64,000 bases of DNA from Emticicia aquatilis. Lineage in GTDB: Bacteria > Bacteroidota > Bacteroidia > Cytophagales > Spirosomataceae. The notes under the pieces are model-generated. The model made no database searches. It saw only the letters and a list, made by a program, of their open reading frames with translations, and was not told the DNA's origin. Shown in pieces: positions 51,801 through 53,835 of the stretch (within the stretch, counting starts at the first letter, position 1; every line of letters begins with the position of its first letter). A program made the translations under genes and the position numbers. Where the stretch lies: contig NZ_BMKK01000003.1 in assembly GCF_014644295.1 (NCBI RefSeq), positions 310,001-374,000 of the forward strand. The letters run 5' to 3'.

Positions 51801-51841
51801 TCAATAGCCGTACAGGTTTACGATTATAATATCATAAAATG

Positions 51842-51880
51842 GGAAAGCCGCTTCAAACGAAGTGGCTTTCTTGTTTTTAT
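51842..51880 (+). terminator. Terminator after T9SS cargo gene
   Basis: Stem GAAAGCC (51843-51849) / GGCTTTC (51864-51870), extended inward by CTTC/GAAG with one mismatch, then a T-rich tail. Confidence 0.8.
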
Positions 51881-52101
51881 ACCTTTTATAAACTTTAAAA
51901 ATTGGGTAATTGAGATAAGATAAGTAGCATTGTGATAATTTTCGTTCTTCTGTGAAAGTCGCTGTTTAAGTAATAGGATAGTTATAATCGATAATTTTTC
52001 AAACAGCTAAATAACTGTTTATTAGTTAATTAACGTAAATTCGGCATTGTCAATATTATGTAAAGCTCTCATAGTCAGCAATTTAAAATAAAAAATATTT
52101 C

Positions 52102-52160
52102 GTAGGAGTTAAATATCGGTAGAAAATGTGACCTCCTTGCTTCTAAAGCCCTATCGGGGC
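52102..52160 (+). repeat. Solo REP copy (non-autonomous) of the RAYT family
   Basis: TAGGAGTTAAATATCGGTAG (52103-52122) equals the left outer REP of the element at 40691. A GCCC-tatc-GGGC hairpin (52148-52160) follows, giving a REP-pair layout without a transposase gene. Confidence 0.7.
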
Positions 52161-52247
52161 GACCGTCAATATTAAGCCCCTTATTTTAATCCCGAATTCA
52201 CGTTTAATTACCTTACTGTGGACTTGTCGAACGCATCGGCGGTCCGA

Positions 52248-52265
52248 TATTGACCATAGACTACT
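52248..52265 (-). repeat. Dispersed 18-nt word, copy 1
   Basis: On the minus strand, AGTAGTCTATGGTCAATA. It matches the copies at 59643 and 62638 at 15 or 16 of 18 positions. Confidence 0.6.
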
Positions 52266-52373
52266 TAATCTGCATTTAGAAAGAAACCCTATGAGCTGTT
52301 TTGGTTTGATGAAGTGAACGAAAGTTTCTGAAATGCAATCCATCATTTTTCCAATCAGATTGGCTATAAAAAA

Positions 52374-52398
52374 ATAGACTCCCATAAAGAGAGTCTAT
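52374..52398 (-). terminator. Terminator of the GG-leader peptide genes
   Basis: Minus strand: 8-bp stem (ATAGACTC 52374-52381 / GAGTCTAT 52391-52398) followed by a run of seven T. It lies about 120 nt after the 76-aa gene. Confidence 0.8.
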
Positions 52399-52519
52399 CT
52401 TACTTTTACAATTTTGGATTACTATAATAACTTAAAGATTTCGATTTCCCTGAACTTTAATATCTTATAGTATAAAAGATTCACTAAAGTGAGACTTATT
52501 TTTATTCAAAAGGTAATGA

Positions 52520-52750
52520 TTAACAACCGCAACCAGTTCCAGTACCTACAGTAACAGTTGGAGCGGCAGCAACTACAGAAGAAGCAACAGTACCAACTTT
52601 AGCAAGTACTCCAGCTACAGTAGATTTAACGGCAGCCACAGTAGGAGCTGCATTCACAGTTACAGAAGGTACACAGATAGCAGGAGTTGAGATAGCAGTT
52701 CCACCGATTACGTTCTCTGCGTTGAATTCAAAAGCATTAAATTTTTCCAT
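52520..52750 (-). CDS. Small peptide with double-glycine leader and C-terminal GCGC (copy A)
   Basis: A 76-residue product: an N-terminal leader MEKFNAFEFNAENVIGG with a double-glycine end at residues 16-17, then a Thr/Ser/Val/Ala-rich body with AICVPSVTVNAAP (residues 24-36) and a long low-complexity stretch, ending GTGTGCGC (cysteines 74 and 76). There is no signal peptide of the Sec type. The double-glycine leader and terminal cysteines are typical of peptides exported and cut by C39-type ABC transporters, such as bacteriocins and RiPP precursors. No maturation or export gene lies nearby. The near-identical copy at 52814 confirms it is a real, duplicated gene. Function is unproven. Confidence 0.75.
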   Translation of the reverse strand: MEKFNAFEFNAENVIGGTAISTPAICVPSVTVNAAPTVAAVKSTVAGVLAKVGTVASSVVAAAPTVTVGTGTGCGC

Positions 52751-52813
52751 TGTTTTTAATTTTAAAAGGTTCGTAAAAAAATATAGTTACTTAAAAAAGT
52801 ACAACTTTAGATA

Positions 52814-53080
52814 TTAACATCCACAGCCGTTAGAAGTACCAGCTGAAACACCAACGTTAACAGAAGCACCAACGTGAGCAGAAACAGATGTAGCAGTAGT
52901 GTGAACAGTAGATAGCAACCCACCAACTTTAGCTAAAGTACCAGCCACAGTAGCTTTCACACCAGCAACTACTGGAGCAGCGTTAACAGTTACAGAAGGT
53001 ACACAGATACAAGGAGTTGAGATAGCAGTTCCACCGATTACGTTCTCTGCATTGAATTCAAAAGAGTTAAATTTTTCCAT
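52814..53080 (-). CDS. Small peptide with double-glycine leader and C-terminal GCGC (copy B)
   Basis: An 88-residue paralogue of copy A, 63 nt upstream and in the same direction. The first 36 residues match at 34 positions (Ser6 for Ala, Cys24 for Ala), including the VIGG leader end and CVPSVTVNAAP. The middle and C-terminal part then diverge completely (GGLLSTVHTTATSVSAHVGASV) until the shared ending GCGC (cysteines 86 and 88). It carries one cysteine more than A (Cys24 with Cys26, a CIC motif). The start is ATG 53080; the frame runs upstream but the extra residues look non-coding. Nucleotide identity over the leader region is very high, so the duplication is recent with selective change of the body. 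Confidence 0.78.
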   Translation of the reverse strand: MEKFNSFEFNAENVIGGTAISTPCICVPSVTVNAAPVVAGVKATVAGTLAKVGGLLSTVHTTATSVSAHVGASVNVGVSAGTSNGCGC

Positions 53081-53143
53081 TGTTTTTAAAGTTTTTTGGT
53101 AAAATAATATAGAATATTGATATGAAAATATCCAAAAACCAGT

Positions 53144-53165
53144 GGTGAAGTATTGAAACTTCACC
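53144..53165. promoter_or_regulatory. Inverted repeat upstream of GG-leader peptide operon
   Basis: GGTGAAGT (53144-53151) / ACTTCACC (53158-53165), about 65 bp upstream of the copy B start. A second repeat, TGAGG-cagta-CCTCA, lies at 53192-53206. Either may be an operator or a leader hairpin. Confidence 0.4.
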
Positions 53166-53540
53166 AAATTTGTCAAGGCAACATGCCCTTATGAGGCAGT
53201 ACCTCACAATCGAACTTCTACAAATTTGAGTTACAGCAAGATTTGTTTTTCTGCTTAACCATATCATTACGACCCAAAGGTCATCTGAAGTAGGATAAGC
53301 TACTGAGCGAATTTCTTAAGATAGAAATAACCGAATGAAGCGATTAATCCTGACATTTTTATAATCAATAGTAAGCTTTGAATTTTTTCATTTTTAAATG
53401 ATATACTAAAAACTTTACTAATTGGTGTAGATTTATTTTACTCAATAATCAACAGGGTACGTGTTTTCTAAAATCTTTAATTGTAGGATAAGCAACGAGA
53501 GTTTATAATAGTTGTGAGAAAACAGCAATTTAATACACTT

Positions 53541-53697
53541 ACGAAATTGGTTTTATTTTGGATTTAAATATTTGTATATTTTTTTAAATTTTTAATTTTA
53601 ACAATCATTTTAAATCGAAAATGAAACGTGTATTCGGAAAACGTGTCTTTTTTTAATTTTTAGAGTAGATACGAAAATGGTTTTAGTTTGGATTTAA
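53541..53697 (+). repeat. 27-nt direct repeat, 130 bp apart
   Basis: Both copies start ACGAAA and end TTTGGATTTAA; they differ at 2 of 27 positions (53541-53567, 53671-53697). Confidence 0.65.
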
Positions 53698-53835
53698 GAG
53701 ATATTATTTTTTTTATAATTAATTGAAGTACATAATAAAAGGATACTCCAATTTATCGTTATTATAAAAAAAGATTTGATTTTGTTATATTTTATGCAAT
53801 ATTAGAATATCTAATAACCTGTTGATTTTATTTTA

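Follow-up and report, generated by a model that had tools for sequence, protein, structure and literature searches.

Two adjacent small genes of Emticicia aquatilis, which encode proteins with a leader ending in a double glycine (GG), raise a puzzle: How would their products leave the cell when no transporter is recognised in their vicinity, and what might they do outside it? The genes are located in a stretch of 64,000 nucleotides, hereafter called the window, of a 6.75 Mb genome of Emticicia type (Bacteroidota, Cytophagales) that we label G000; its sister genome in the same genus is labelled G008. The explanation that we favour, with moderate confidence, is that the pair would represent orphan precursors of exported, bacteriocin-like GG-peptides using an exporter encoded elsewhere.

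The gene pair and its variable site

The elements of the pair and of the site that holds it are the following.

52520..52750, minus strand: precursor gene 1 (P0001, 76 aa), with a 17-aa leader MEKFNAFEFNAENVIGG and a 59-aa core containing 3 Cys and 0 Asp/Glu
52814..53080, minus strand: precursor gene 2 (P0002, 88 aa), with a 17-aa leader MEKFNSFEFNAENVIGG and a 71-aa core containing 4 Cys and 0 Asp/Glu
52700..52750, minus strand: double-glycine leader of gene 1 (E = 1.1e-9 with the leader profile, in which it is included as a row)
53030..53080, minus strand: double-glycine leader of gene 2 (E = 3.6e-10 with the leader profile, in which it is included as a row)
52549..53112, minus strand: tandem duplication, 52549-52786 versus 52879-53112, with 81% DNA identity over 243 bases
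52374..52398, minus strand: intrinsic terminator, its stem-loop letter-identical in the sister genome G008
53143..53166, minus strand: terminator- or operator-like hairpin TGGTGAAG...CTTCACCA upstream of gene 2
51801..53835, no strand: variable stretch of 2035 bp holding the pair, between a 352-aa gene and a DUF179 gene

The two genes, both on the minus strand, are separated by a gap of 63 bp. As a previous, sequence-only reading of this DNA had noticed, their products of 76 and 88 aa have a common VIGG leader (MEKFN[A/S]FEFNAENVIGG in both) and are nearly identical along residues 1-36, of which 2 differ. The same reading considered the middle parts to be completely different, a view that does not survive alignment: the middles are homologous, the proteins being 75% identical over 76 positions and 69% identical over 59 core positions. 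Judging from these sequences, the pair is a tandem duplicate in which the second half has drifted, with a length difference of 12 residues. The GCGC end is indeed present in both window genes, but it is not fixed, as had been claimed, since the corresponding pair of the sister species ends with TTCGGCC and GLGLNH. The cysteines lie near the ends of the cores (positions 9, 57 and 59 in P0001; 7, 9, 69 and 71 in P0002), and the fraction of Ala, Val, Thr, Ser, Pro and Gly in the two cores is 0.85 and 0.77. By position, the counterpart of P0001 is G008a (L012 8043-8279), with 75% identity over 69 aligned residues, and that of P0002 is G008b (L012 8343-8603), with 40% identity and a Cys/Pro-rich middle resembling the peptides encoded at the C4 locus discussed below. 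No family was matched by the pair among Pfam and NCBIfam models up to E 10, lanthipeptide leader models included. The AlphaFold model of P0002 with three relatives was uninformative (mean pLDDT 40). Relatives of the pair were not found on plasmids or phages at E <= 0.01, and a scan of named genomes returned one locus, on a contig of an Emticicia sp. MAG that has the gene content of contig C3 of G008.

The stretch bearing the pair measures 2035 bp in the window and 1868 bp in G008 (lengths obtained by subtraction of ORF ends). The gene flanking it matches Pfam DUF179 (AlgH-like), and we take it to be of the yqgE type. The same site measures 124-142 bp in G002, G003, G009 and G010 and 416 bp in G005; the pair is present in two and absent from five of the seven genomes that have a comparable neighbourhood among the 11 of the genus. 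G001, G004, G006 and G007 were not counted because their DUF179 gene has other neighbours in the stretches compared, which makes them uninformative on the empty site. A gain of the pair in the lineage of G000 and G008 would be a simpler reading of this distribution than loss elsewhere. The terminator that had been proposed downstream of both genes is visible on the minus strand, with an 8-bp stem, a 9-base loop and a T-run; it is absent from the output of our terminator scan, which was limited to loops of 3-8 bases. The hairpin upstream of gene 2 is weak, since one such structure was found against 0.7 (SD 0.8) expected in shuffled sequences. At its gathering thresholds, Rfam gave no match in the window. 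Reading the neighbouring ORFs, we recognised no maturase or transporter, in agreement with the sequence-only reading, nor any immunity gene.

Two features of the same stretch deserve mention in their own right. Positions 51905-52360 contain pieces of short dispersed repeats, which are found also at C23:43757, C2:76862, C5:108401 and other places of the genome; two of the repeat fragments adjoin in C23 and C5, so that the copy in the window looks interrupted. Upstream of the pair, positions 53540-53590 and 53670-53720 also form a direct repeat, with units of about 52 bp and 83% identity.

A scattered leader family and its C39 exporters

The leader provides the means to find relatives of the pair elsewhere. 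A profile of 22 positions, built from seven leaders (six of G000 and one of G008), matched six genes in G000, six in G008 and one in G010 at E <= 2.2e-8 across the 11 genomes of the genus. The six members of G000, all of which are profile rows, score E 1.1e-9 or better, and the G010 leader scores E 2.2e-8; nothing further appeared in these genomes up to E 0.159, and rows at E 0.159 or worse were dropped. Recovery of the seven profile rows being expected, the informative part of the result lies in the five further leaders of G008, the leader of G010 and the clean gap below them. In G000 the leader family (F..FE...GG) comprises the two window genes, one orphan at C2 and three genes at C4; the search of the genome for more such genes, which the earlier reading had proposed, has thus yielded four further members (three at C4, one at C2).

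At the family level, the leader is found at E <= 0.01 in 8 of 222 genomes (G000, G008, G010, G049, G108, G143, G147 and G150), the weakest being that of G108 (E 9.4e-4). A search with a single protein gave matches in 4 of the 222 genomes; those in G111 (E 0.008) and G036 (E 0.025) were rejected as chance matches in frames with stops. Of two weak rows obtained within G000, the one at C2 proved to be a family member and the one at C6 was dropped. At the order level (390 genomes), a model including the G150 and G147 rows found 7 genomes at E <= 0.01, G100, G328 and G425 among them. Upstream of the trio at C4 there is a fourth leader gene (L009 6596-6775), degenerate in appearance, in which GR replaces GG. 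Short motifs, ATTGAGTG and TGAACCTT, precede the start codon in some members of C4 or C2 type (L009, L011, L057, L058, L059); in the window, gene 1 has GAACCTTTT only and gene 2 has neither, and these motifs were not used as evidence.

The genome contains two C39-type exporters, a class for which the earlier reading had suggested a search. Downstream of the C4 trio, after a gap of about 240 bp, comes a 730-aa gene with the domains Peptidase_C39, ABC_membrane and ABC_tran, which is followed by a gene with an OEP domain (outer-membrane efflux, TolC type) and then by one for an adaptor of HlyD type. The Pfam matches of this adaptor are weak by themselves, but it is 29% identical (E 1e-50) to the adaptor of G010, which matches HlyD_3. 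A DMT-type membrane protein adjoins the adaptor gene on the opposite strand. The interpretation of the window genes as double-glycine precursors is supported by these data, given the presence of C39 exporters, of further genes in the leader family and of an exporter placed directly after three of these. Two checks, on a lack of C39 exporters in the genome and on homologues devoid of the GG, left that interpretation standing.

The association extends beyond Emticicia. In all eight leader-bearing genomes, the distance between a leader gene found by the family-level search and a gene with the Peptidase_C39 domain is 240-4,001 bp, and the exporters so linked are 43-98% identical to the C4 exporter, or are the C4 exporter itself; second leader-like genes in G150, G147 and G108 are closer still (106-209 bp). 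The idea that the leader marks a single exporter clade was abandoned, as the tree of 13 exporters requires 3 changes and 97 of 500 shuffles were as low. Close relatives of the exporter (E <= 1e-100) occur in 6 of the 11 genomes of the genus, including G002, G004 and G005, which do not have the leader; hence there is no strict bond between this leader and a type of exporter, and the leader goes with C39 exporters in general rather than with one exporter lineage. The C2 precursor has no exporter within 15 kb around it, whereas its counterpart in G010 lies inside a C39/HlyD/TolC locus that has in common with C2 a regulator (69% identical) and two other neighbours. A precursor of this family can therefore stand with or without an adjacent exporter. 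C39 exporters occur also in G005 and G004 with GG-peptides of another leader type, LS..QMKKI.GG-like (L071, L072, L073).

How well does the window leader fit what C39 peptidases recognise? In the PCAT1-substrate structure, the recognition elements are L(-12)xxxE(-8)L(-7) before the GG, together with a specificity residue at -4 (PMC6959990). In the window pair a short N-terminal leader terminates in GG, and all four leaders of window type (those of the pair and of its two G008 counterparts) have V at the hydrophobic -4 position; they fit the consensus at these two places only, for they carry A or S at -12, N at -8 and A at -7. Among the 24 leaders examined, a hydrophobic residue at -12 occurs in all 20 of the others and in none of the four of window type. 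The remaining two elements are not strict in the relatives, E(-8) being found in 9 of the 20 and a hydrophobic -7 in 10. Of the trio of leaders beside the C4 exporter, two match the consensus in full. By eye, the window leader equals the C2 leader minus one residue before NAE, which shifts its Phe from -12 to -11. That such an off-register leader is strictly conserved argues that it still works, perhaps with a preference of its own.

Export of the pair is likely. The C39 domain of the C4 exporter would recognise the window leader and cut after the GG; the channel would then release a cationic peptide of 59 or 71 residues, perhaps disulfide-bonded via its three to four cysteines. Once outside the cell, the peptides may act, less certainly, as bacteriocin-like antagonists.

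Fixed leaders, fast cores and the role of the peptides

Evidence bearing on this role comes from the divergence of the window-type genes. We calculated dN and dS with a Nei-Gojobori script for every pairing of the four such genes (the two of the window and the two of G008), six in all. In 6 of 6 pairs the 17-residue leader has dN of 0-0.024 and dS of 0.26-1.65. The cores have dN of 0.22-1.22 and dN/dS of 0.34-1.46 in 6 of 6 pairs, single ratios being rough because of the approximately nine synonymous sites per leader, the non-independence of the pairs and the poor alignment of the most diverged cores; the highest core values, in particular, belong to poorly aligning pairs (two pairs involving G008b, with 20-25% core identity). 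The leader contrast, along with the self-match of the pair (E = 5.5e-58) and its occurrence at the same place in G008, excludes chance for the window pair. Between G000 and G008, dN/dS is 0.03 for the flanking 352-aa gene, 0.05 for the DUF179 gene and 0.01 for the C4 exporter.

A fixed leader with a fast core does not, however, extend to the whole family, for the relatives at C4 and C2 change slowly in leader and core alike. Their values against G008 are as follows.

C4-1: leader dN 0.086, core dN 0.142, core dN/dS 0.14
C4-2: leader dN 0.063, core dN 0.109, core dN/dS 0.19
C4-3: leader dN 0.134, core dN 0.140, core dN/dS 0.22
C2: leader dN 0.041, core dN 0.023, core dN/dS 0.03

The contrast is special to the type of the window pair. 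A lack of acidic residues is more widespread: in 17 of 21 leader-bearing proteins the core has neither Asp nor Glu, and these 17 cores together contain 49 Lys/Arg in 1,133 residues. The exceptions are G150b, G147b, G108 and G108b. As background, Asp and Glu form 11.5% of the residues in those ORFs of the window that are 250 aa or longer. As the proteins are related, this represents one family trait and not 17 independent facts.

An antagonist role would account for the combination of fixed leaders with fast-changing, acid-free cores, and such a combination is more usual for antagonistic peptides; on these grounds antagonism by the pair is plausible. The peptides might instead be exported via the C4 system for other tasks, as signalling, surface-coating or metal/redox-binding peptides whose bodies serve structure. 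Save for the DMT-type membrane protein, no immunity-like gene was recognised beside the pair or the C4 locus, as this alternative would have it, and the window cores have the biased composition reported above; moreover, the C4 and C2 members are Cys/Pro/Thr repeat-like, with slow-evolving cores. We regard a non-antagonistic role as unlikely, the fast cores of window type with their fixed leader and lack of acidic residues arguing against it.

Candidate maturation systems and comparison with known peptides

The earlier reading envisaged a thioether-linked or otherwise cysteine-modified pair. This part of it finds no backing: the ORFs read around the pair and next to the C4 exporter included no recognisable maturase, and modification of the pair is unproven. 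The search for enzymes of LanM or radical-SAM type, likewise suggested earlier, led to C11, where LanB, radical SAM and LanC lie with another leader class, lant_leader_L1a of NCBIfam. We do not favour the lanthipeptide machinery of C11 as the modifier of the window pair, since both scanned C11 precursors are L1a and the pair matches no such model. The pair has no lanthipeptide leader class and no LanB, LanM or LanC beside its genes. One C4 relative matched NCBIfam TIGR04149 (rSAM-modified RiPP) with E 0.0024 and 17.7 bits, below the cut-off of 25.

The C11 locus is by itself a cluster of class I lanthipeptide type (L010, G000 C11:13000-32000, plus C11:32848-35176). It includes a LanB with both Pfam domains, a radical SAM/SPASM protein near the YhhB/FxsB models though below their cut-offs, a C39-ABC exporter, a short HlyD_3 protein, an M16 peptidase, two precursors with L1a leader, two LanC-like genes and a 79-aa ORF without match. 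A partial LanC-like match (E 7.4e-7) is also present at G000 C7:30336-30581, within an open frame of 745 aa.

A different candidate is found near the C2 precursor.

L011 7835-9582 (relatives L057, L059, L091, L092, L094): 250-aa protein with invariant FFFFF and RG, plus glycosyltransferase

In loci of C2 type, the gene for the 250-aa protein and that for a family-2 glycosyltransferase lie close to the precursor and abut or overlap each other. Of the 222 family genomes, six encode the 250-aa protein, each with the glycosyltransferase gene and a leader-family precursor nearby; every one of these glycosyltransferases matches Pfam Glycos_transf_2 and Glyco_transf_7C and keeps the DAD motif. For the 250-aa protein, NCBIfam gave no match in five of the six cases and one weak row (E 0.023) in the sixth, Pfam gave none in the two of six that were scanned, and PDB returned one row at chance level. 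A LanB-like nature, suspected from FFFFF..RG, was discarded after hhalign gave a probability of 1.7% against the LanB C-terminal domain of the same genome. The glycosyltransferase profile retrieved from PDB a single sequence at E <= 0.001, that of the generic glycosyltransferase 6p61, and none of the solved glycocin enzymes that the PDB contains; the C2-type enzyme differs in this from those of glycocins. The C2 neighbours are a possible new maturation module.

Could this module glycosylate or otherwise modify the window pair in trans, thereby defining a new class of modified peptides? The constant company of the 250-aa protein, the glycosyltransferase and a precursor, and the presence of the module in G000, once, at C2, would speak for it. 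Nevertheless, module and pair are on different contigs, the precursor next to the module has a core of another build, and nothing links the module with the pair; G049 has a leader-family precursor and an exporter without any such module, and the database matches of the 250-aa protein are uninformative. We judge modification in trans decidedly improbable. A broader proposal would be that Emticicia and its relatives possess an undescribed family of exported GG-peptides, with a leader of F..[FML]E type and mostly acid-free, Cys-bearing cores, scattered over the genome and served by one exporter in trans, the window-type cores evolving fast and part of the family being matured by the new glycosyltransferase and 250-aa module, with the window pair as substrates of a new glycosylated ribosomal peptide pathway; as a whole, this seems quite unlikely. 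That the pair might be relics, an orphan tandem copy inefficiently exported after its leader lost the -12/-7 register, is suggested by the non-hydrophobic -12 peculiar to window-type leaders, by the lack of an exporter beside the pair and by the degenerate GR relative upstream of the C4 block, yet is highly improbable: the leader has stayed near-identical between the two copies and between the two species despite changes at synonymous sites, neither species shows a broken frame, and the terminator has been kept.

The preferred reading, of orphan precursors of exported peptides, can be compared with known systems. C39-exported GG-peptides are already known in Bacteroidota, namely, bacteroidetocins and the RiPP clusters of Bacteroidales (PMC6671954, PMC10352776). 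Bacteroidetocins are class IIa-like bacteriocins of Bacteroidales, 35-50 aa long and with at least two Cys, whose loci encode a peptidase-domain ABC exporter, a five-TM protein and mostly a thiol oxidoreductase (PMC6671954). The window pair resembles them in its origin from Bacteroidota, its double-glycine leader, its two or more Cys and the peptidase-domain ABC transporter as putative exporter, while differing in the length of the cores (59 and 71 aa) and in not lying next to the transporter (PMC6671954). Reading of the ORFs at the pair and at C4, with scans of some of the neighbours, recognised neither a five-TM protein nor a thiol oxidoreductase, the nearest membrane protein at C4 being of the DMT family. 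The Bacteroidales RiPP clusters with PCAT/C39 exporters similarly combine GG precursors with PCAT exporters and in some cases glycosyltransferases, but they carry rSAM, LanC or YcaO maturases (PMC10352776), none of which was recognised beside the precursors of the window or C4.

The arrangement of the leader family in G000 has its own parallels. Several precursors served by one machine is also the genome layout of prochlorosins. The similarity includes a conserved leader and variable cores; however, prochlorosins are lanthipeptides modified by ProcM (PMC10783134), and neither the window nor the C4 locus showed a recognisable LanM-type partner. Loci of C2 type, and these only, resemble glycocins in having GG peptides with Cys together with a glycosyltransferase (PMC12457901); there is no glycosyltransferase beside the window pair, and in G000 it was seen beside the C2 relative only.

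No description of the Emticicia GG-peptide family, of its scattered layout or of the C2 module was found among the titles and abstract openings listed by searches of the open-licence PMC literature. If our interpretation is true, peptide precursors can lie far from their exporter or maturase and be found by the leader alone. Mining based on loci could miss such precursors because of this distance, and the pair matches no Pfam or NCBIfam model. The window-type genes would offer a natural set, with fixed leader versus fast core in two sister species, for testing if a single exporter handles precursors scattered over the genome and if the cores function as weapons, while the C2-type locus constitutes a small, conserved candidate maturation module that includes a protein of no recognised family.
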